From NCBI GenBank assembly GCA_017531225.1, contig JAFXLL010000010.1, forward strand, positions 310,001 to 374,000: a stretch of 64,000 nucleotides of DNA, read 5' to 3'. Under the pieces are notes generated by a model, which saw nothing but the letters and a program-made list of their open reading frames with translations, was not told the DNA's origin and searched no databases. Position numbers and translations under genes: made by a program. Below are positions 31,418 through 44,198 of the stretch, piece after piece (positions within the stretch are counted from its first letter, which is position 1; the number at the start of each line of letters is the position of its first letter). The stretch comes from Bacteroidales bacterium. GTDB taxonomy: Bacteria > Bacteroidota > Bacteroidia > Bacteroidales > F082.

Positions 31418-31452
31418 GGCGTGGGCCTCTCATGGGCTCACGCCAGTTTTTT
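31418..31452 (+). terminator. Rho-independent terminator
   Basis: GGCGTG (31418-31423) pairs with CACGCC (31439-31444), extended inward by an imperfect GGCC/GGGC arm, and is followed by a run of six T (31447-31452). It ends the 28710-30737 transcription unit. Confidence 0.75.
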
Positions 31453-32593
31453 ATACAATCTCGTCATTCCACAACGCCTTAAAGAAATCCGTCACATAAT
31501 ACAAATCAACATCTCCACTTCGACGGCTGATCCTATCGCGCGACACAAGGATTTGCCTTGCATTGGGATGCTCCTTGGCAAACTCGGCAAGACCCTTCTT
31601 GTGGCTGGGTTGCACCTCTTCGGTCGATTTGATTTCAATGGCTATTCTGGCGTTGCCTATCACGGCATCCACTTCGATATTGTCATAAGTATGCCAATAA
31701 GTCAACTTCTCTTCGCTGTTTTTATATCCCAAAAAAGCCACGATTTCCTGTAAAACAAGATGTTCAAAAGCATGTCCGTACTCGGGCGTCTTTGGAGCTA
31801 AATGATGGCGGCCTGTCAGGTAATTGGCAACACCCACGTCAAAGAAATAAAACCTTGAGGCTTTGGTGAGTTTTCGCTTGATGACTTTCCTGAAAGCGGG
31901 AACCTCAAATCCCAACAAGGTATCGCACAGTATCTTGTAATAGGCCTTGACCGTGTTGGCCGACACGCCACAATCCGCAGCCACGTTCTCGTAATTGAGT
32001 ATTTCACCGTCCGAGATGGCAGCTACTTCCAAAAAGCGGACAAAATCGTCGATGTTTTGAACGGCTGCTTCTTCCAGGATTTCTTCCTTCAAATAGAGTT
32101 CAATATAGGATTTAAGTCGGTTACGTGCATTAGCCACCATATAATGTCGGGGAATCATCCCATTCTGTACGGCTCGATTCAAGTCAAAATCCGGAATTTC
32201 CGCACTAACCAAAGGAAACAGTGTTTCCGGGATAGCGCGTCCCCCGAGGCTGTTGACTCCACTCTTCTTCAACTTACGGGCACTGGATCCACTGAGGATA
32301 AAGAAAAGCCCTTTGTTCACCATCAGCCAATGGACTTCGTCCAACAAATCAGGAACTTTCTGGATTTCATCCACGATGATCAGCGTCTCAGGCGGATACT
32401 TTAGCAGGCTTTCCCTGAATTCCTCAGGATGCTGACGATAGCGATTTCTTAGTTCGGAGTTCAGGAGGTCAAAGTAAATGGCCTTCGGGAAGCGTGCTTT
32501 CAACAGTGTGGACTTGCCCACTTGACGGCCACCGAACAAAAACATCCCCTCGTCTAAACGATTCTCAATATCAAATATTCTATTGTACATCAT
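31451..32593 (-). CDS. AAA-type ATPase with DUF4143 C-terminal domain
   Basis: A 380-residue protein of the ATP-binding plus DUF4143 type. Walker A is FLFGGRQVGKSTLLK near residue 20. Walker B is TLIIVDEIQKVPDLLDEVHW, and a sensor FILSGSSARKL follows. The C-terminal region (about 190-380) has FLEVAAISDGEILNYENVAA (winged helix-like) and the DUF4143 core GHAFEHLVLQEIVAFLGYKN, TYWHTYDNIEVDAVI and IEIKSTEE, a PD-(D/E)XK-like segment. Genes of this kind are abundant and horizontally exchanged in Bacteroidota; the function is unknown. A promoter with TTG (32682-32680) and TAATTTTG (32659-32652) lies upstream, with an A/T-rich hairpin (CGGAT/ATCCG, 32620-32640) in the leader. Confidence 0.9.
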   Translation of the reverse strand: MMYNRIFDIENRLDEGMFLFGGRQVGKSTLLKARFPKAIYFDLLNSELRNRYRQHPEEFRESLLKYPPETLIIVDEIQKVPDLLDEVHWLMVNKGLFFILSGSSARKLKKSGVNSLGGRAIPETLFPLVSAEIPDFDLNRAVQNGMIPRHYMVANARNRLKSYIELYLKEEILEEAAVQNIDDFVRFLEVAAISDGEILNYENVAADCGVSANTVKAYYKILCDTLLGFEVPAFRKVIKRKLTKASRFYFFDVGVANYLTGRHHLAPKTPEYGHAFEHLVLQEIVAFLGYKNSEEKLTYWHTYDNIEVDAVIGNARIAIEIKSTEEVQPSHKKGLAEFAKEHPNARQILVSRDRISRRSGDVDLYYVTDFFKALWNDEIV

Positions 32594-32776: not shown

Positions 32777-35700
32777 ATGGATTATAATTTTACCGAGATC
32801 GAAAAAAAATGGCAGCAATATTGGCGCGACCAGAAAGTGTATAAGGTTGATATTGACCACAATAAGCCAAAATTCTATGTTTTGGACATGTTCCCCTACC
32901 CTTCAGGAGCAGGGCTGCATGTGGGTCACCCATTAGGCTACATCGCCTCTGACATTTATGCAAGATACAAACGCCTGAAAGGCTTCAACGTGCTGCACCC
33001 CATGGGTTACGATGCCTACGGCCTGCCCGCCGAACAGTATGCCATCCAGACAGGCACCCACCCTGCCGTGACCACCGAGAAGAACATCAACCGCTACCGC
33101 GAGCAGATGGACAAGATCGGCTTCAGTTACGACTGGGACCGCGAGGTGCGCACCAGCGATCCGAGCTACTACAAATGGACTCAATGGACCTTCATACAGT
33201 TGTTCAACTCATTCTACTGCAACAAATGCCAAAAGGCCCAGCCCATCAGTAAACTGGTAGCACGCTTCGAGGAAAAAGGCACCGAAGGCCTCAACGTGGC
33301 CGAAAGCAAGCCGCTGAGCTTCACCGCCGATGAGTGGAAAGCCATGAGCGAGAAGGAACAGCAAGAGGTGCTGATGAACTACCGTCTCGCCTACCAAGCC
33401 GAGGCTTTAGTGAACTGGTGCCCGAAACTCGGCACCGTGTTGGCCAACGACGAAGTAGTCGACGGTCTCTCCGTTCGTGGCGGCTATCCCGTAGTGCGCA
33501 AGTCGATGAAGCAATGGCTGCTCCGCATCACCGCCTATGCCGAAAGGCTACTCACCGGTCTGGAGACCGTGGAATGGAGCGAGTCGGTAAAGGAAGTGCA
33601 GCGCAACTGGATCGGCAAGTCCATGGGTGCCTCCGTCATCTTCAAAGTCGACGGTAAAGATATCGATCTGGAAGTGTTCACCACCCGTGCCGATACCTTG
33701 TTCGGCACCACCTTCATGGTGCTGGCTCCTGAGCACGAGTTGGTTTCAGAGATCACCACCCCCGAGCAACGTGCCGAGGTGGAAGAATACATCACCCGCA
33801 CCAAGAACCGCAGCGAGCGTGAGCGCATGGCCGAGGTCCGCAAGGTGAGCGGCGCCTTCACGGGTGCCTACGGCATCAACCCCATCACGGGTGCCAAGCT
33901 CCCCATCTGGATTGCCGACTACGTCCTCATGGGCTATGGCACCGGCGCCATCATGGCCGTGCCCGCCCACGACAGCCGCGACTTCGCCTTTGCCAGACAT
34001 TTCAACTTACCCATCATCCAGGTGGTGAAGAAACCTGGCACCGAGCCGACCGACCCCGCCACCTGGGAAGAGAGCTTCGACGCCAAGGACGGCGAGTTAG
34101 TCAACTCCGGCTTCCTCAACGGCCTCACCGTGAAGAAAGCCATCGAACGCATGATCCAGGAATTGGAGAAACTCGGCGTTGGCACAGGCAAGACCAACTA
34201 CCGCCTGCGTGATGCCATCTTCAGCCGCCAGCGTTACTGGGGCGAGCCTTTCCCGATTTACTACAAGGACGGCATGCCTTACGCCATGGACGAGTCGAAA
34301 CTACCTTTGGAGCTGCCTTCCATCGACGAATACAAACCTACCGAGACGGGCGAGCCGCCTTTGGCCCGTGCCAAGAACTGGGTCACCGAGGAGGGCTACC
34401 CCATCGAGACCAACACCATGCCTGGCTTTGCCGGATCAAGCGGCTACTACCTCCGCTATCAAGACCCACATAACGACAGGGAATACTTCAGCCGTGAAGC
34501 CAACGACTATTGGCAAAACGTCGACCTTTATATCGGCGGCGCCGAACACGCCACCGGCCACTTGATCTACAGCCGTTTCTGGTGCAAGTTCCTGCATGAC
34601 CTTGACTTGTCATGCAAGGATGAGCCCTTCCAGCGCATGATCAACCAGGGCATGATCCAAGGCCGTTCCAGTTTCGCCTATCGTGTCAATCTGGAGAAGC
34701 TGTGCGAATATGACGTTTGGAACATCATCAAGGACAAGCGCTTGGGTGTGGAATTCGTGAGAGACTTCAAGGACGGCCGTCGTCGGTTCGACTTCTTCTG
34801 CCCTGAAAAAGACATCCTCATCGAGATCAACCGTATGGGCAACCTCGAGAAAGTGGCCGAGCCTTGGGAGGAATACGCGGCGTCGAAAGGCTACAAGCTG
34901 CTTTTGGTGCCTAACATCGACGTCTTGAATGATTACAGATCTGGAACCAATATCGTTGAGCAAAAGATCAAGGATTTGATTGCAGGCAAGGAAGTCCCGG
35001 CCTTTGTCGACGGTGAAGAGTACAAGCGAGGCCCCATCTTCGTCTCCAAGAACATCCCTGACCGTGAGCTGTTCAGCGATCCGATTCACGTGGACATCAA
35101 CATGGTGCACAACGACATCCTCGACATTCAAGCATGCCGTCAATGGCGCGACGACCTGAAGGACGCCCACTTCATCAAGGAGAAGGACAAGGACGGCAAC
35201 GAGGTTTATGTGTGCGGTTCGGAAGTCGAAAAGATGTCGAAGTCGATGTACAATGTGCAGAACCCCGATGATATCGTCGAAAAATATGGTGCCGACACAC
35301 TCCGTCTGTACGAGATGTTCCTCGGACCGCTCGAGCAATCCAAACCTTGGGACACTCAAGGCATCGAAGGCACTTTCCGCTTCCTGCGCAAGTTCTGGAA
35401 ACTCTACACCGACGAAAGCAACGAGTTCCGCATCAGTGACGAGCCCGCCACCGCGGCTGAGCTGAAGTGCCTGCACAAGCTCATCAAGAAAGAGGAAGAC
35501 GGCATCGAGAGCATCTCGTTCAACACCGTCGTCTCCGCCTTTATGATTGGTGTGAACGAACTCACCGACCTCAAGTGCAACAAGCGTGAGATTCTGGAGC
35601 CGCTGTGCGTGATGATCTCGCCCTACGCTCCTCACATCGCCGAAGAGCTCTGGCACCTGTTAGGCCATAACGATTCCGTAGTGAAGGCTACCTTCCCCGT

Positions 35701-35914
35701 TTACGACGAGTCGAAGACTGTGGAAAACAGCTTCAACTACCCCATCAGCTTCAACGGCAAGATGCGTTTCAACATGGAACTGCCTGTGACGATGACCGCC
35801 GACGAGGTGCAAGCCGCCGTGCTGGCCGCCCCCGAAGCCGCCAAATGGATCGAAGGCAAGCAGATCCGCAAGGTGATCTACGTACCGAAGAAGATTGTGA
35901 ACATTGTATTATAA
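32777..35914 (+). CDS. leuS: Leucyl-tRNA synthetase with an inserted DUF559-like domain
   Basis: A 1045-residue class I synthetase that charges tRNA-Leu; family members in Bacteroidota are usually about 920-950 residues. The HIGH-type motif is [16 protein letters not shown] (about 38-53), the editing domain lies at about 230-430 ([15 protein letters not shown]), [11 protein letters not shown] and the [16 protein letters not shown] segment are intact, and KMSKSM is near 818. The C-terminal anticodon domain ends [10 protein letters not shown]. Between [12 protein letters not shown] (ends at about 637) and [12 protein letters not shown] (starts at about 769) lie about 125 extra residues resembling a DUF559/PD-(D/E)XK nuclease (D672, E683). 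The normal family sequence continues on both sides, so it is an in-frame insertion, not a frameshift. No intein splice motifs (Cys/Ser start, HN end) are visible. Confidence 0.97.
34691..35071 (+). other. DUF559-like insertion inside leuS
   Basis: Residues about 639-765 of LeuS. The order [58 protein letters not shown] and [11 protein letters not shown] follows the DUF559 pattern: a helix ending in LG.F.R, a DF..PE...IEI core with D672 and E683, a GY.LL.V strand, and a final amphipathic helix. The third catalytic position (usually K or Q) is unclear, so activity is uncertain. Confidence 0.65.
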
Positions 35915-36270: not shown

Positions 36271-36305
36271 ATATTACTATGACAAAAAAGATTCTTAAAA
36301 ATACT

Positions 36306-39300
36306 ATGACAAAAAAACTTTTACTATTTATCGCTCTGCTGTGCGCGGTTGCACAGGGAGCTTGGGCGCAAAACAGTTGGGACGAAGTCTATGCAATGAC
36401 GCAGACCACCTCGACAGACTGGACGGCCCTTGCAGGCTCCACTACGGGACAGACGCTCGGCAGTGTGGGTAACACGACGTACTATTACGCCAATTCGAAC
36501 CTCAGTTTCACCAACAGCAACGCAGGCGGCAGCGGCCTGACCATCCAGGGCACGGTGTATCTTTACATCCCCTCCGGCACGACGCTGACCTGCACGGGAG
36601 CCAATGCCAGCGGAACCACGGGTGGCGGTGCCGGTATCGAATTGACCGAGGGCAACACGCTCTGCCTCATCGGTAGCGGTACGGTGAATGCCACGGGCGG
36701 TAATGCTGCCAATGGCGGCAACGGCGGCAATGGCGGCAACGCAAGTGGTGTTTGGAATGAATGGACATCTACGGGTGCCGGTGGCAACGGTGGCAATGGC
36801 GGTGGCGGAGCCGGTGCCGGCATAGGCACACGCGGCGGCAATGGCGGCAGTGGCGGTAACGGAGGCAGCGGCTATACGTACAGTGATTGGAAAGCACATA
36901 ATGGAACCAATGGTACTTCTGGTAGTGCTGGTTCTACCGCTGGTGCGATGGGCACGATCTATGTGTATCAGGCTACCGGTACTGCGGTTGCGGTAAATGC
37001 CACCGGCGGCGTAGCAGGTTCAACAGGTGGTAGTGGTGGCAATCGCGGCCGTGGCCGTATAGATGATGAGGGTTATAACTATAGTGTGTCCGGCGGCGGT
37101 GGCGGCGGTGGCGGTGGTTTTGGAGGTGCAGCCAGCAACATCGGTACCGGAGGCCCCGGCGGTGGCGGCGGCGGCGGCGCCGGCGGTGCGCAGGATTGGA
37201 AGTCCTCTGGATACTACGATGTAACAGCCTACGGAGGCCATGGCGGACAAAATGCGAATGGCAGTTATGTTGCCGATGGCACAGAAGCTCTGACAAGTCG
37301 CCTCGCCATGGAGGCAGGCTTGGTAGATACCAATTATGATGGTTGGGATGACGATGACGCAAATCCACCAAGCGGCGCTGCTACTTTTGGCTCGGGCGGC
37401 TCGGGCGGCGGCTGTGGCAATGCCAGCAGCAACGGCTCGGCCGTCAGCCTGGCGTTATGGCCTACCTCAGGCGCAGGCACGGCTGAAAGCCCATACCTCT
37501 TGGACAATGCTGCCGAATGGAACACATTCGCCACAAACGTCAACAATGGCATCTCCTTCAACGGCAAATACATCCAACTGAACAACAGCATCAGCGTTTC
37601 GACGATGGTAGGTTTGTGCGAGGAGAGTCCTTACGCACCCCGTCCCTTCAGCGGCACTTTCCTTGGCAATGGAAAGACACTGACTGTCAGCATCAGCAGC
37701 TCGGCGACAGGCACTGGCACCAATGAGCAGGGCGTGGCACCGTTCCATTACATCAAAGGCGCCACGATCAAGGACCTGACCGTGGCGGGTACTATCGCTT
37801 CGGCCAGCTATTACACAGCGGGTATTGTGGGCTTTGCCCATGGCAGCAACCTGATTGAGGGTTGCACCGTCTCCGCCACGCTCAACATCAGCAACAACTA
37901 TGCTGGTGGTATCATAGGCCATGCCATGAACTCGATTACCACCGTCAAGGATTGTTTCTTTAAAGGCACGTTCAACGGCGTTAGTGGCAGTCGTATCAAT
38001 ATCGGTGCCATTTGGGGTTGGTGCAACAGCGCCATTGGCGTTCTCCAGAACTGTTGGGAGAAGGGCACCTACAACAACATCACCTCCATGCATCCCATGG
38101 GCTTGATGGCCGCAGCGACCACAGGCACCGTCACCACCACAAGCTGCCTTTATGTGAATCAGCAGATAGGCACGCCTACCAACGCCAATACCATTGTGGG
38201 AGCAAGTCAGGTCAGCACCTCAGCACCCGGAAGTGGAATCTACGGCCCAGTAATGACTCCTGACAACTCTGTTTACTATCTGCCCTGCGTGGTTTCTGGT
38301 ATTAAGGACAAATACGTCAGAACAGGTTCGGCTATTGTACCGGACATTGTGGTGACCTGTAACGAAATCGCGCTCGAAAACGGCACCGACTATGAAGTGA
38401 CAATCGCCAATAACGTCAATTTAGGCACCGCTCAAGTAACCGTCACTGGCAAGGGCAGCTACAGCGGCACGGAGAACTTCACGTTCTCCATCGTTGACTA
38501 TGAAATCGTTAATTCAGCGATTACCAGACTGCAAAACAAAGCGTATAAGGTGATTAAGGACACAAGAATAGATTGGGATCGCGTTGTAGTTGAAGGTGAT
38601 GTCATACTGATTCTCGGCGAGGGTACTACCTTAGAAGTCCCGTTTGGCATCGAAGTGAGTGCTGGCAACTCGTTGACCATCGAAGGTCCTGGCACGCTGC
38701 GTATCACCGGCTGGTTAAGCCCATGCGCGGGCATCGGAGCCGATAACCCTGGTACCATCATCATCAATGGCGGCAACATCAATGTTCATGGAGGTATGAA
38801 TTCAGCCGGACTTGGCGGTAGCCAGTCAAGTACCGGCGCAGGACGCGTCATCATCAACGGCGGCGTAGTCTCTGCCAGAGGCGATGGTTATGCTGTTGGC
38901 ATTGGCGCCGGCGGTTTAGGCAAATGCTGCGATATAGTTATCAATGGCGGTCAGGTGACAGCTAAACCCGGAAATTTTGGAAAAAAGGGCATAGGCGTAG
39001 GTGATGACTACGCTGATTTGAGTGGAACGCTGACAATTGGCTGGACCCACCCCGACGATTCCATACGTTCCATTGGTGGTAACAGATTAGCCAATGTTAC
39101 TTTTGTCAACGGCAAGCAGTTCGTATATGAAGGTACACAGGATATAGCTACGGGCGCTAACTTCAATACGGGCGGTGATAAGAAAATAGTGCCTTTCATA
39201 GCAACGGGTACGCTTCCTGGCGATGGCACAGAGGAAAATCCCTATAGTATCAGCACCACTGCCGACTGGAACGCCTTTGTGGCGAATGTCATTACCGGCA

Positions 39301-42300
39301 ACTCCTACAGCGGCAAGTACGTGGCACTGACTGACGACATCAGCGTCACCCAGAAATGCGGCTACGTGTCGCAAACAACACTGAGCAGGGCTTTCAGTGG
39401 CACCTTCCTCGGCAACAACAAGATCATCACTGCCACCATCAACGATATGAGCACCGACTATGGTACGGCTCTCTTCAGCTATATCAACGGCGCCACCATC
39501 AAGAACCTGACTGTGGCGGGTTCCATCACCTCATCCAACAGGTACGCGGCAGGCCTTGTGAGCTATGCCGAGGGCACCAACCTCATTGAAAAATGCTACG
39601 TCACTGCTACGCTGAACATCAAGAGCGACTACGCAGGCGGCATCATTGGCCACGGTATGACATCGGCCACCACCATCAAGGAAAGCATCTTTGCCGGCAC
39701 CTTCAACGGAATTGGTGGCAATCGTGCCAACGTCGGAGGAATATGGGGGTGGAGCACCGATGGTACACCCACCTTGCAGTCCTGCTTGGAAGCGGGTAAC
39801 TACAACAACATCTCGTCCATGCATCCTATGGGCTTGCAAGGCGAAAAGGGCACCATCGAAAACAGTTACTATGTACACACACAGATCGGCTCGCCCGCCA
39901 ACGCCTGCATTGTCAGCGGCGCCCTTCAGGCCTACACCTCGGCTCCTGACAATGAAATCTACTGGCAATTTACAGCTGCCGATAGCCATAACTACTATCT
40001 GACTTGCACCGTCAATGACGTATTGTCATCCTACGAATGGCAGACTGGTTCCCCTGACATCAGCTTTACCCCAGTCGTGAAAGGCGTCACCGGTGAGGCT
40101 CTCACCTTGGGCACCGACTATACAGCCAAGCTGGATGGCAATGCTGTGACGTCATTCCCAATCACCATCAATTCGGCAGGTACCCATACGCTCATCTTCA
40201 CAGGCAAGGGCAATTACTATACCGGATCGAAGACCTTCAGCATAGTGCTGCACGGTCCGTTTGCGGGTGCAGGAACATCTGAGGATAACCCCTACCTTAT
40301 CAACAATGCAACCGACTGGGCATATCTGGCCGACAATGTAGCCTATGAAAAGGACTACAGTGGCAAGTACTTTAAGCTGACCGCCAACATCGAAGTTACT
40401 GAGATGGTGGGCACCATCACACACGACTTCAAAGGCACCTTTGACGGCGGCGGCAAGACGCTGACCTTTACTAAAGGCACGTCTGAAAGACCTTTCGCCG
40501 AAGACCATTGCGCTCCATTCCGCTCTGTTGACGGCGCTACTATTAAGAACCTTAAGGTGACAGGCAATATCTACTCATTCAAAAAGTACGCCGCCGGATT
40601 GGTTGCCCGCAGCAACGGCACTACAAACATCAGCTCTTGCGTCGTCGGCACAGTCATCCATAGCGGCATTACTGGCGACGGCACACACGGCGGCATCATT
40701 GGCCATCCATATGGCCCGCTGACTATTTCGGAATGTGTCTATAATGGCCGTCTGCTCACCTACAATGGCACCACTCAGTGCGGTGGCTTTGTTGGCTGGT
40801 ATAATAACAACAACGTCACTGTCAACAATTCGCTTTATGCCCCCAACACCAGCATCACACCAGCTGCTGGCGAGACGGACATCACCGACGGTGCCACCTT
40901 CGTGCGCGGCAGTAACATAGACGCATACTGCTACTACACCCAGGCATTGGGCGATGCACAGGGGATTCAGGTCTTTGCCACCCTCCCCAGCAATGAAGTC
41001 TGCATACAGGCACAGGCACTCGACGGCAATATGTACTATCATCCTTGCACGGTTAGCGGTGTGGCAGCGACTTACAGTCTGAAAGACAACCCTTCAATCA
41101 CGCTGGCTGTGACAGGACTCAATAGTGCACTTACCCTTAATACCGACTACACGGCTACACTGAACGGTGCTGCAGTGCAACAAAGCACCATCAGCATCAC
41201 CGCAGGGGGCTACTACACACTTATCCTCACAGGCATTCCGGATGACTACACTGGCTCAAAACAAATCACATTTGTAGTGACGCATGATCTTCCTGGCACC
41301 GGTACCGAGGAAGATCCATATCTCATCAGTAGTGCAGCCAACTGGAATCAGTTTGCGGTCAATGTAGCCAGTGGCATGGACTACAGCGGCAAGTATGTGA
41401 AACTGAACGCCGACATCAACGTTACCTCAATGGTGGGTACCAGCGAACACCCCTTCAAGGGTATCTTCCTCGGCGACGACAACTTTACGCTGACATTCAC
41501 GGCAGGCTCGTCATCCGCACCCGTCAACGAGGAATACTGCGCACCGTTCCGCTATGTGAGAGGCGCCACTATTGAAAACCTTAAGGTGGGCGGCGACATT
41601 TACATGTCCAAGAAGTTTGCTGCCGGACTGGTCAGCCGTACCCTCGATACGACGAACATCACAAACTGCATCGTCAGCACCGTCATCCATAGCAGCATTG
41701 CGGGTGACGGCACTCACGGCGGCATTGTATCCATGCCTTCAGCCAAACTGAACATGACAGGCTGCGTCTATGACGGCCGTCTGTTCACCACCAATGGCAC
41801 TAATTGCTGCGCCGGCCTCATAGGTTGGCATAATGGCTGTGTTATCAATTTCAGCAATTCGTTCTATATCCCCAACACAGGCATAACACCGGCTGCGGGC
41901 GAAACGGCTATCACAAACGGTGCCACCATCGTGCGTGGCAGAAACGCAACCCAGACCTGCTACTACGCCGAGACGTTAGGCGAGGCCCAAGGTACGCGAA
42001 TCTATGTCAGCCATGGGAACGATTTCTACAAAAAGATTACGGCCAATAGCCATACCTACTATCAGCTTTGTACGATCAGTAACGTTACTGATGCCTATCA
42101 GTACACGGGCGAGGACATTACCATCGTTCCAACCGTCAAGGCTGCCGACGGCACGAAGCTCACGAATGATACCGACTACACCTATGCTTTCGATCCTACT
42201 CCAGTGAATGAAATTGGCGACTACACCCTGACCATCACTGCCAAGGGTAGCGACTGTGTTGGCTCAAAGAGCATTTCGTTTGCCGTGACAAACATCAAGC

Positions 42301-44198
42301 CCATGACTGCTGAATCGGATACACTGACGACAGGTGAATATATGGTATATGGCGACGTGACCGTCACACAACGCATCAGAATCATCGGCGATGTCGTGCT
42401 GAATCTTGGTGCGGGCAACACGCTTACCGCCAAGAAAGGCATTGAACTGAGCGAGGGCAACAAACTGACCATCAACGGACCTGGCTCACTGATTATCGAC
42501 GACTGCAATGACAACAAATCGGGTATTGGAGCCGTGCGTGTGGGCACCCTTGTCATCAACGGTGGCTACCTCAATGTAAAGGGTCATGCTACAGCAGCCG
42601 GATTGGGTGGCGATTATAACAACACTTCGGGTGGAAGCATCACCATCAATGGCGGCGTGGTCATTGCCGAGGGCGGAGTTTTTTCCGCAGGCATAGGCGG
42701 TGGTGTAAGCGACTTAGACCAGTCTGGTGTATGCGGCGATATCGTCATCAATGGCGGTCAGGTAACTGTAGGTTCTAGCATTGGGTTCTTTGGGATTGGT
42801 ATTGGACCTGGATATAGAATTCTTGGAGGACCTACTAAGAGCGGAACGCTGACCATCGGCTGGACCAACCCCAACGACTTCGTCAAAAGCATCGGTCACA
42901 TTTATAGAGGAGAGACTTTTTTGAATAGCGTTACTTTTGTCGAGGGCAAACGATTCTTCATTGATGGCACACAGACCATCGCCACTGCCGCAGACATCGA
43001 AGGCAATAAGATTGTACCTGCCATGACGACTGTCATTAATGGCTACGTCGAAGGCAACGACGGTTGGGCCTTCATCGCTTCGCCAGTAGTTGAAAACATA
43101 GCTCCTTCGACGGTCGGTAACCTCCTTGGTAATGTGATTCCAGAGTCAAATCCAGTGCAATACGACTTCGACCTCTACCGCTTGAATCCGAGTAGTGTCA
43201 TGTGGGAGAACTACCATCAGCACAACACACAGGAGGATCCTTTCATGCTCGTCAACGGCCAAGGCTACCTCTATGCCACCAGGGAAACCAAGACTTTGAT
43301 GTTCCCCGGCACCTACAACACCGGCACAGAGAAGGTGATTGAGGACTTGCCTAAAGGCTTCAACCTCGTGGGCAACCCGTTCATTGTGGAGGCTTACGCA
43401 AACAGAAGCTATTACAAGATGAATGCCGTAGGCGATGATATTGAAATTGTTGAAAACTATGCTGAAAACCCAATACCAGCCTGCACAGGCGTTGTGGTGA
43501 AAACCGAGACCGCAGGTGAAAGCGTCACCTTCAGAACTTCGGCGCCAAATCAGCAGTCGTCAGCCAATAATGGCAGTTTGCAGATGACTCTTGTGAAAGG
43601 CAGCCTCGACACCCGCGACGCGAAGGTGCACGACAAGGCCATAGTGAGCTTCAACGAAGGCAGCAATCTCGAGAAATTTGTCTTCAATTATGAACACGCT
43701 AAGCTGTATATTCCGCAGAACGGACAAGACTACGCCATCGCCCACAGCGACCAGCAAGGCGAAATGCCGCTCAACTTCAAGGCCGCCACAAACGGCGAAT
43801 ACACGATTGCGGTCAGCCACGAGAACGTGGAATTAGGCTATTTGCACCTCATCGACAACCTCGCCGGCACCGACGTGGACTTGCTGCAAACGCCGAGCTA
43901 CACCTTTACCGCCAGAAATGATGACTACGCCTCACGCTTCCGCTTAGTGTTCGTGTCCAACGACGCCCAACTTGGTGGCGAGGGCAGCGACGACTTCGCC
44001 TTCATCAGCAACGGACAAATCATCCTCACTGGTGTAACCGGCAACAGCGTGCTGCAAGTCATCGACCTCACTGGCCGCGTGCTCGCCTCCTACAAGGGCG
44101 CCAACCGCATCGGCACGAGCGGACTGGTCGCCGGAGTTTATGTTTTGAGAATCATCAACGGAGACGATGTGAAGACTCAGAAAATCGTTATCAAATAA
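36306..44198 (+). CDS. Giant T9SS-secreted adhesin-like protein (paralogue 1)
   Basis: About 2630 residues. ATG at 36306 gives a clean signal peptide (MTKKLLLFIALLCAVAQGAW, ending AQ); an upstream in-frame ATG at 36279 lies inside a 14-bp direct repeat (36276-36289 and 36303-36316) that duplicates the start site. Residues about 120-370 are glycine-rich with GGNGG, GGSGG and GGGG runs. Four copies of a GLUG-like module follow (starting near residues 390, 970, 1315 and 1660), each with a start like AGTAESPYLL or GTEEDPYLI, SGKY.kL, and MVG or CGY. INGG-type beta-helix repeats lie at about 770-900 and 2015-2200 (TIIINGGNINVHGG). YDG/MBG-like strands (VTGKGSYSGTENFTFSI) link the modules. The end has GFNLVGNPF, GYLHLIDNLAGTDVDLL and a T9SS sorting domain (SNGQIILTG to KTQKIVIK). 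It should be exported and surface-bound; adhesion is inferred. Confidence 0.9.
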   Translation: MTKKLLLFIALLCAVAQGAWAQNSWDEVYAMTQTTSTDWTALAGSTTGQTLGSVGNTTYYYANSNLSFTNSNAGGSGLTIQGTVYLYIPSGTTLTCTGANASGTTGGGAGIELTEGNTLCLIGSGTVNATGGNAANGGNGGNGGNASGVWNEWTSTGAGGNGGNGGGGAGAGIGTRGGNGGSGGNGGSGYTYSDWKAHNGTNGTSGSAGSTAGAMGTIYVYQATGTAVAVNATGGVAGSTGGSGGNRGRGRIDDEGYNYSVSGGGGGGGGGFGGAASNIGTGGPGGGGGGGAGGAQDWKSSGYYDVTAYGGHGGQNANGSYVADGTEALTSRLAMEAGLVDTNYDGWDDDDANPPSGAATFGSGGSGGGCGNASSNGSAVSLALWPTSGAGTAESPYLLDNAAEWNTFATNVNNGISFNGKYIQLNNSISVSTMVGLCEESPYAPRPFSGTFLGNGKTLTVSISSSATGTGTNEQGVAPFHYIKGATIKDLTVAGTIASASYYTAGIVGFAHGSNLIEGCTVSATLNISNNYAGGIIGHAMNSITTVKDCFFKGTFNGVSGSRINIGAIWGWCNSAIGVLQNCWEKGTYNNITSMHPMGLMAAATTGTVTTTSCLYVNQQIGTPTNANTIVGASQVSTSAPGSGIYGPVMTPDNSVYYLPCVVSGIKDKYVRTGSAIVPDIVVTCNEIALENGTDYEVTIANNVNLGTAQVTVTGKGSYSGTENFTFSIVDYEIVNSAITRLQNKAYKVIKDTRIDWDRVVVEGDVILILGEGTTLEVPFGIEVSAGNSLTIEGPGTLRITGWLSPCAGIGADNPGTIIINGGNINVHGGMNSAGLGGSQSSTGAGRVIINGGVVSARGDGYAVGIGAGGLGKCCDIVINGGQVTAKPGNFGKKGIGVGDDYADLSGTLTIGWTHPDDSIRSIGGNRLANVTFVNGKQFVYEGTQDIATGANFNTGGDKKIVPFIATGTLPGDGTEENPYSISTTADWNAFVANVITGNSYSGKYVALTDDISVTQKCGYVSQTTLSRAFSGTFLGNNKIITATINDMSTDYGTALFSYINGATIKNLTVAGSITSSNRYAAGLVSYAEGTNLIEKCYVTATLNIKSDYAGGIIGHGMTSATTIKESIFAGTFNGIGGNRANVGGIWGWSTDGTPTLQSCLEAGNYNNISSMHPMGLQGEKGTIENSYYVHTQIGSPANACIVSGALQAYTSAPDNEIYWQFTAADSHNYYLTCTVNDVLSSYEWQTGSPDISFTPVVKGVTGEALTLGTDYTAKLDGNAVTSFPITINSAGTHTLIFTGKGNYYTGSKTFSIVLHGPFAGAGTSEDNPYLINNATDWAYLADNVAYEKDYSGKYFKLTANIEVTEMVGTITHDFKGTFDGGGKTLTFTKGTSERPFAEDHCAPFRSVDGATIKNLKVTGNIYSFKKYAAGLVARSNGTTNISSCVVGTVIHSGITGDGTHGGIIGHPYGPLTISECVYNGRLLTYNGTTQCGGFVGWYNNNNVTVNNSLYAPNTSITPAAGETDITDGATFVRGSNIDAYCYYTQALGDAQGIQVFATLPSNEVCIQAQALDGNMYYHPCTVSGVAATYSLKDNPSITLAVTGLNSALTLNTDYTATLNGAAVQQSTISITAGGYYTLILTGIPDDYTGSKQITFVVTHDLPGTGTEEDPYLISSAANWNQFAVNVASGMDYSGKYVKLNADINVTSMVGTSEHPFKGIFLGDDNFTLTFTAGSSSAPVNEEYCAPFRYVRGATIENLKVGGDIYMSKKFAAGLVSRTLDTTNITNCIVSTVIHSSIAGDGTHGGIVSMPSAKLNMTGCVYDGRLFTTNGTNCCAGLIGWHNGCVINFSNSFYIPNTGITPAAGETAITNGATIVRGRNATQTCYYAETLGEAQGTRIYVSHGNDFYKKITANSHTYYQLCTISNVTDAYQYTGEDITIVPTVKAADGTKLTNDTDYTYAFDPTPVNEIGDYTLTITAKGSDCVGSKSISFAVTNIKPMTAESDTLTTGEYMVYGDVTVTQRIRIIGDVVLNLGAGNTLTAKKGIELSEGNKLTINGPGSLIIDDCNDNKSGIGAVRVGTLVINGGYLNVKGHATAAGLGGDYNNTSGGSITINGGVVIAEGGVFSAGIGGGVSDLDQSGVCGDIVINGGQVTVGSSIGFFGIGIGPGYRILGGPTKSGTLTIGWTNPNDFVKSIGHIYRGETFLNSVTFVEGKRFFIDGTQTIATAADIEGNKIVPAMTTVINGYVEGNDGWAFIASPVVENIAPSTVGNLLGNVIPESNPVQYDFDLYRLNPSSVMWENYHQHNTQEDPFMLVNGQGYLYATRETKTLMFPGTYNTGTEKVIEDLPKGFNLVGNPFIVEAYANRSYYKMNAVGDDIEIVENYAENPIPACTGVVVKTETAGESVTFRTSAPNQQSSANNGSLQMTLVKGSLDTRDAKVHDKAIVSFNEGSNLEKFVFNYEHAKLYIPQNGQDYAIAHSDQQGEMPLNFKAATNGEYTIAVSHENVELGYLHLIDNLAGTDVDLLQTPSYTFTARNDDYASRFRLVFVSNDAQLGGEGSDDFAFISNGQIILTGVTGNSVLQVIDLTGRVLASYKGANRIGTSGLVAGVYVLRIINGDDVKTQKIVIK

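Follow-up and report, generated by a model that had tools for sequence, protein, structure and literature searches.

The leucyl-tRNA synthetase (LeuS) gene in the 64,000-nucleotide stretch of Bacteroidales DNA analyzed here (the window) carries a whole nuclease-type domain, inserted in frame within the leucine-specific domain (LSD) of its product. We propose, with a probability of roughly 0.45, that this insert is a homing-like element without a splicing device, which stays in the protein as a permanent loop between two LSD strands. The original prediction had floated three roles for the insert (action on tRNA, a selfish element, or a sensor), and among these the evolutionary data, as drawn from sequence comparison, favor the non-splicing selfish element.

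The gene lies at 32777..35914 on the forward strand and consists of a single open frame of 1045 residues. It scores 943.8 bits with the equivalog model TIGR00396 (cut-off 548.4), which identifies it as a bacterial LeuS, and it is the only LeuS match in the source genome at E <= 1e-50. HVGH at residue 48 and the KMSKS loop at residues 819-823 (35231..35245) are whole, and the LeuS sequence on either side of the insert stays in frame, as had been predicted. The empty LeuS alleles of the order, meaning those that have no insert, have open frames of mostly 917-957 residues. Upstream of leuS, on the reverse strand, is an AAA_14/DUF4143 ATPase gene (31451-32593). On the forward strand at 36279-44198 is a gene for a 2639-residue protein with glycine-rich stretches and repeated segments, recognized by eye, and a weak match to the Por_Secre_tail sorting domain.

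Comparison with insert-less and scar alleles places the insert proper at residues 637-754 (118 residues, 34685..35038), with edges uncertain by a few residues. The site is between GRSSFAYR, which ends at residue 636, and FVSKN, ahead of the LSD strand PIHVDIN. The insert starts with VNLE and ends with RGPI, followed by FVSK, and replaces about six native residues (for example IIGTNK) of insert-less LeuS; an empty LSD typically reads GRSNFVYRI-xGTNKFVSxGLKDxYxTTPIHVDIN. The 5' boundary, directly after the LSD strand SSFAYR (residues 631-636, 34667..34684), is sharp, as judged from sister pairs of insert-bearing and empty alleles: residues 620-635 are 88-100% identical in five such pairs (L176/L227, L180/L230, L177/L232, L184/L233 and L175/L228). 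Residues 755-765 align with the native LSD of insert-less LeuS and thus are outside the insert. The interruption of about 125 residues described in the original prediction is therefore real and its 5' edge was close, but its 3' edge had been set 11 residues too far. An assembly artefact as the source of the insert is ruled out by the agreement of many genomes. The insert is also far beyond chance, as dozens of genomes have a homologous segment in frame at this position.

Three lines of evidence, namely profile search, fold prediction and structure search, agree on the nuclease-like PD-(D/E)XK fold that had been suggested from the DNA. The predicted core (DUF559/Vsr-like; residues 639-735, 34691..34981) runs helix, three strands, helix, strand and two helices, and in the model takes up about 97 of the roughly 118 insert residues. 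The DUF559 pattern also held up: the window's own insert has a borderline score against Pfam DUF559 (PF04480; E 5.7e-4, 20.2 bits, 0.4 bits under the cut-off of 20.6), matches at E <= 0.1 were obtained for 16 of 19 diverse insert members, the best of them at 6.8e-12, and a profile built from the 19 inserts matches PDB 3hrl with an E value of 1.1e-8. A Foldseek search with the predicted structure gave three matches under E 1e-3, two of them to chains of I-Bth0305I, a homing endonuclease whose EDxHD catalytic-domain fold is shared by the predicted insert structure; the same search also returned mitoribosomal proteins of T. gondii and Tetrahymena. These results support the assignment of the insert as a folded nuclease domain of the Vsr/EDxHD/DUF559 type, with the fold itself taken from a model. 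A full-length LeuS model from 39 sequences had a pLDDT of 46.4 and was confident only at residues 631-815, and we claim from it no placement relative to the tRNA or the active site. In the confident part, the modeled insert exits after the LSD strand 631-637 and re-enters before strands 754-756 and 767-772.

Of the D...(D/E)-x-K motif, the insert has the predicted metal-binding residues D672 (codon at 34790..34792) and E683 (34823..34825), both of which are in the core of the insert as originally stated. The third position holds N685; among 35 diverse alleles, 19 have K there and 11 have N. D672 is conserved in all 64 close alleles, a set in which genus genomes are mixed with loci from a collection scan, and in 32 of the 35 diverse alleles; it is lost in some distant members (L186, L189). 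Position 683 is E in 63 and D in one of the close alleles, and E in 33 and D in two of the diverse ones. A third predicted active-site acid, E644 in the first helix (34706..34708), is E in 64 of 64 close and 33 of 35 diverse alleles. The nuclease is, on its residues, probably catalytically competent. The canonical DUF559 Asp and His after E683 are absent here (N685, N689). Because the E-x-D-G..H motif of most other DUF559 copies is not matched (E-x-N or E-x-K at 685, no His at 689), we regard the LSD inserts as a sister branch and not as canonical DUF559 members. We found no accompanying DNA-binding module with the insert domain.

The LeuS search at E 1e-50 gave a match in 91 of the 100 genomes of the genus group and none in the other nine. 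By alignment range the insert is whole in 73 of the 91, cut within by a contig end in one (G089), lacking in 16 and broken at the site in one (G012). Four genomes (G088, G018, G031 and G027) are rated 91-99% complete, yet have no LeuS match at this threshold, and two LeuS matches (G092:C81 and G116:C91) each hold one in-frame stop codon. LeuS was matched in 281 of 295 genomes sampled from the order, but any insert match at E <= 0.001 was present in only 35 of the 295, so the insert is not a standard part of LeuS. The searches thus returned PD-(D/E)XK and DUF559 matches for a segment of restricted occurrence, and neither of the outcomes named beforehand as counting against the prediction was seen. 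An insert at the LSD site was recognized in at least 22 of the 295 genomes, from 14 family groups (f1, f11, f36, f46, f59, f72, f74, f77, f82, f100, f103, f110, f112 and f117), a count in which G307 is cut by a contig end and from which G210 and G390 (f112) are left out. Carriers and non-carriers occur side by side in f59, f74, f100, f103 and f117.

The collection scan gave 67 loci, titled Bacteroidales, Bacteroidia, Bacteroidetes, bacterium F082 or Ca. Limimorpha, with one exception titled Methanobrevibacter. The exception (L064, NZ_JAFSNZ010000003.1), in a Methanobrevibacter MAG, has a Bacteroidales-type LeuS insert with 79% identity and is probably mis-binned. Across 395 genomes sampled from the phylum, the loci examined from the matches listed (29 returned besides this one and 20 chosen matches, one of them a repeat) included no recognized LSD insert outside the Bacteroidales. 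A tblastn search for a phage relative of the insert gave no match, and comparison with known defense and phage families (PADLOC, PHROGs) gave weak and mixed matches only.

A single origin of the LSD inserts is likely from their phylogeny, because 21 of them form one side of a branch (99, starred) in a tree of 73 DUF559 domains, which was a quick tree with few columns and one very long row (L235). The presence of the insert on the LeuS tree requires 18 changes, of which at least 11 are forced by starred branches. That tree, also quick, was made without the insert from 82 rows and 754 columns, with L261, L263 and 19 near copies dropped, and outside the genus the changes may be gains or losses. 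Scars at the site are present in 14 genomes, with at least three events forced: nine genomes have the common VNKDKM...GPLFISKN, four have longer scars and one has a short scar. We read these remnants as in-frame deletion of the nuclease. No second copy of the insert was found in the five scar genomes, of the 14, that were searched.

The insert appears to have a phylogeny partly apart from that of its host gene, and its flank appears to have been exchanged with it, a pattern present alongside background recombination of LeuS. Insert and backbone trees of 35 alleles reject each other (AU p 1.6e-7 one way and 1.1e-5 the other, with 12 near copies dropped and L235 on a very long branch), and purely vertical descent of the insert is rejected by this conflict. 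A second tree test, on 45 of the 64 close alleles after removal of near copies, had the same sign. In that test the upstream and downstream LeuS trees conflicted too, from which we conclude that the LeuS gene recombines in general; because other parts of LeuS recombine too, the exchanges could have arisen by ordinary homologous recombination. The conflict of the insert tree is inflated because the insert evolves faster, with a tree length of 7.4 versus 2.1-2.4 for other LeuS parts. The identities of insert and backbone correlate (0.72 over 2016 pairs), and therefore descent dominates.

Single alleles show swaps of the insert and of the LSD directly. L159 and L162 are 98% identical at residues 150-309, yet only 67, 65 and 37% identical over 637-754, where L159 is 90, 90 and 85% identical to the window's allele. 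Between L161 and L129, a scar allele, DNA identity is 90-100% at 480-599, only 53-78% at 740-819 and again 98-100% at 820-919. L143 and L144 have an empty LSD and are nested in the clade of the window's allele, to which they are 43 and 37% identical at 755-771 and 53 and 57% identical at 772-799, the rest of the gene being mostly 85-98% identical. Over residues 755-799 their LSD is 25-57% like those of the window's allele, L152, L154 and L118, and the remainder is mostly 80-100% alike.

The native LSD downstream of the insert is a divergence hot spot. Residues 772-818 are about 14 points below backbone identity in 1016 insert-bearing pairs with 90-99% backbone identity, compared with -0.3 and +0.8 points in 43 empty control pairs (f61, f109) and +1.2 and -4.4 points in 42 scar or empty pairs from the genus, both controls at 85-99% backbone identity. 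The pairs are not independent, and only 13 sequences make up the empty set (G781, which is split on two contigs, is left out); residues 155-179, 870-894 and 995-1019 are also variable in one or both sets. The empty and scar controls have no such drop and so lend no support to a generally hypervariable LSD as the source of the hot spot. In 45 alleles the trees of the insert and the 3' LSD have 14 of 42 splits in common, compared with 4 to 8 for other pairings of parts, and the 3' LSD data cost 95 log units on the insert tree versus 310-381 on backbone trees. Patristic distances of the insert correlate less well with those of the 3' LSD (0.63) than with those of one of the upstream parts (0.72). 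By these comparisons the native 3' LSD (residues 755-818, 35039..35230) appears to have a tendency to move together with the insert.

The insert is under purifying selection and most genomes of the genus retain it. In 840 pairs from the 64 close alleles (upstream dS 0.1-1.2), finite dN/dS values have a median of 0.083 in the insert, compared with 0.034 in the upstream part and 0.048 in the downstream part. The highest finite value for the insert is 0.28, and about one quarter of its values are not finite as a result of saturated synonymous sites. The domain, judged from these ratios, is not decaying.

In-frame DUF559 units also occur at other sites and in other genes, whose names we assigned from recognized motifs. 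In LeuS itself, they are present in the editing domain of seven Bacteroidota loci (L028, L182, L197, L198, L205, L273 and L276), one of which (L182) also has the LSD insert, and at a second site ahead of ELTTMPG or ELSTMPG in L266, L269 and L270. Two near-identical ValS units just before VATTRPET (L027 and L168, in G012 and G022) are from the same genus as this DNA. MetH (L275, L280, L282, L284), RecG (L204, L206, L207, L283) and HsdR (L211, L220, L267, L274, L278) hold others, with further units in L191 and L195. The MetH and RecG copies form one site-specific clade each across genomes (92 and 94). All 14 kin loci read as DNA have, by eye, hairpins at both ends, and we consider these units a mobile-looking family residing in housekeeping and restriction genes. 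Like the LSD insert, the hairpin-ended units of LeuS, ValS, MetH, RecG and HsdR belong to the DUF559 family, are in frame and occupy recurrent sites. They are mostly E-x-D..H, whereas the LSD inserts are the separate group on the starred branch and are without hairpins; hairpin ends were sought at the window's insert and only two weak inverted repeats were found.

The homing-like proposal also draws on the placement of a DUF559 gene among the EDxHD homing endonucleases in one description (PMC9403480). A loop in the LSD could be tolerated because this domain is described as variable among LeuRS and missing from some of them (PMC6588880, PMC5059758), such as AgnB2 and the Helicobacter enzyme (PMC5059758). 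The LSD would accommodate the loop, and the host enzyme would still charge tRNA normally. The nuclease domain would cut close to the conserved GRSNFVYR site in leuS alleles that have no insert or whose LSD has diverged, and repair from an insert-bearing allele would copy the insert, often with the neighboring 3' LSD. Exchange would in this way be driven by cleavage. Lineages that no longer profit would delete the insert, leaving scars, or would be overwritten by empty alleles. A wider proposal, which we put forward tentatively, is that compact DUF559-type domains are a new selfish class of unspliced loops in essential proteins that spread by allele conversion. The LSD insert would be an old one-site lineage without hairpins, with turnover by way of gains, swaps, scars and empty alleles, and the hairpin-ended units of LeuS, ValS, MetH and RecG would be its more mobile kin.

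The fold could instead be a domesticated accessory domain of LeuRS that binds or cuts tRNA-Leu or other RNA to the benefit of the enzyme, in tRNA quality control or in a stress or phage response. The location of the insert in a domain described as near the tRNA (PMC6588880) fits such a role, as do the mitoribosomal proteins returned by the structure search. So does the RAP domain of FASTKD4, a eukaryotic mitochondrial domain with a Vsr-like fold tied to RNA, which is described as binding without cutting (PMC11879112). The low dN/dS and the retention in most genomes of the genus would also be expected of a useful domain, and rapid turnover is compatible with a defense trait. We nevertheless consider domestication somewhat less likely than the homing-like reading, given the several losses inside the genus that left scars with no second copy in the scar genomes searched, and the scarcity of insert matches in the order. 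With 20 K+R versus 23 D+E the insert lacks a basic character, its catalytic acids are kept as in a cutting enzyme, and its matches to defense families are weak and mixed.

An insert that is merely passive, a former mobile nuclease inserted once, tolerated by the LSD and moved by ordinary leuS recombination with no host function, seems unlikely. Such an insert should have lost its active site, yet the three acids are nearly invariant in the close alleles, dN/dS is far below 1, and the extra divergence of the native LSD was observed only in insert-bearing alleles. The general recombination among these alleles, the LeuRS described without an LSD (PMC5059758) and the loss of D672 in some distant members are what a passive insert would lead one to expect. 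Removal of the insert from the protein or RNA as an intein or intron, leaving a normal mature LeuRS, is hardly credible, even though inteins typically lie in frame at conserved motifs of essential genes and an aminoacyl-tRNA synthetase intein is known in the ThrRS of Candida (PMC5056185). With about 97 of 118 residues used by the nuclease fold, there is no Hint splicing domain; the first position is not Cys, Ser or Thr and the terminal Asn is absent.

The homing-like element that we prefer resembles several known systems in part. The N. gonorrhoeae endonuclease-like protein NGO0050 (PDB 3hrl; DUF559) is not embedded in another protein and has E-x-D-G followed by His, whereas the LSD inserts have E-x-N or mostly E-x-K and no His. 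I-Bth0305I (PDB 3r3p) has a catalytic-domain fold like that predicted for the insert, but is described as a long, multi-domain enzyme, listed with the group I homing endonucleases, that has additional regions for DNA binding and whose target spans nearly 60 bp (PMC3943268), whereas the insert has no intron, splicing part or extra DNA-binding domain. The Vsr mismatch endonuclease (PDB 1vsr) is described as a repair enzyme that stands alone and has a His in its active site (PMC11879112); the insert has no such His. The ThrRS intein of Candida is likewise an in-frame element of an aminoacyl-tRNA synthetase, but it splices (PMC5056185) and the insert has no splicing domain. In the open-licence PMC literature we found no paper joining LeuS with DUF559 or with an in-frame endonuclease domain, which is not proof of novelty, and papers there on insertions in the leucine-specific domain of LeuS have no nuclease in their titles or abstract openings.

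Our results suggest that in some gut Bacteroidales LeuS carries a whole nuclease-type domain that is swapped, lost and passed around, as an unusual non-splicing selfish element. Homing nucleases have been described as needing self-splicing introns or inteins to enter highly conserved genes (PMC3943268). If the homing reading is true, an unspliced nuclease loop in an essential tRNA synthetase would be another route of invasion. If domestication is true, a nuclease wired into tRNA charging would be of equal interest for translation control or defense. The alleles with, without, scarred by and swapped for the insert in one genus would offer natural experiments on the poorly understood leucine-specific domain.
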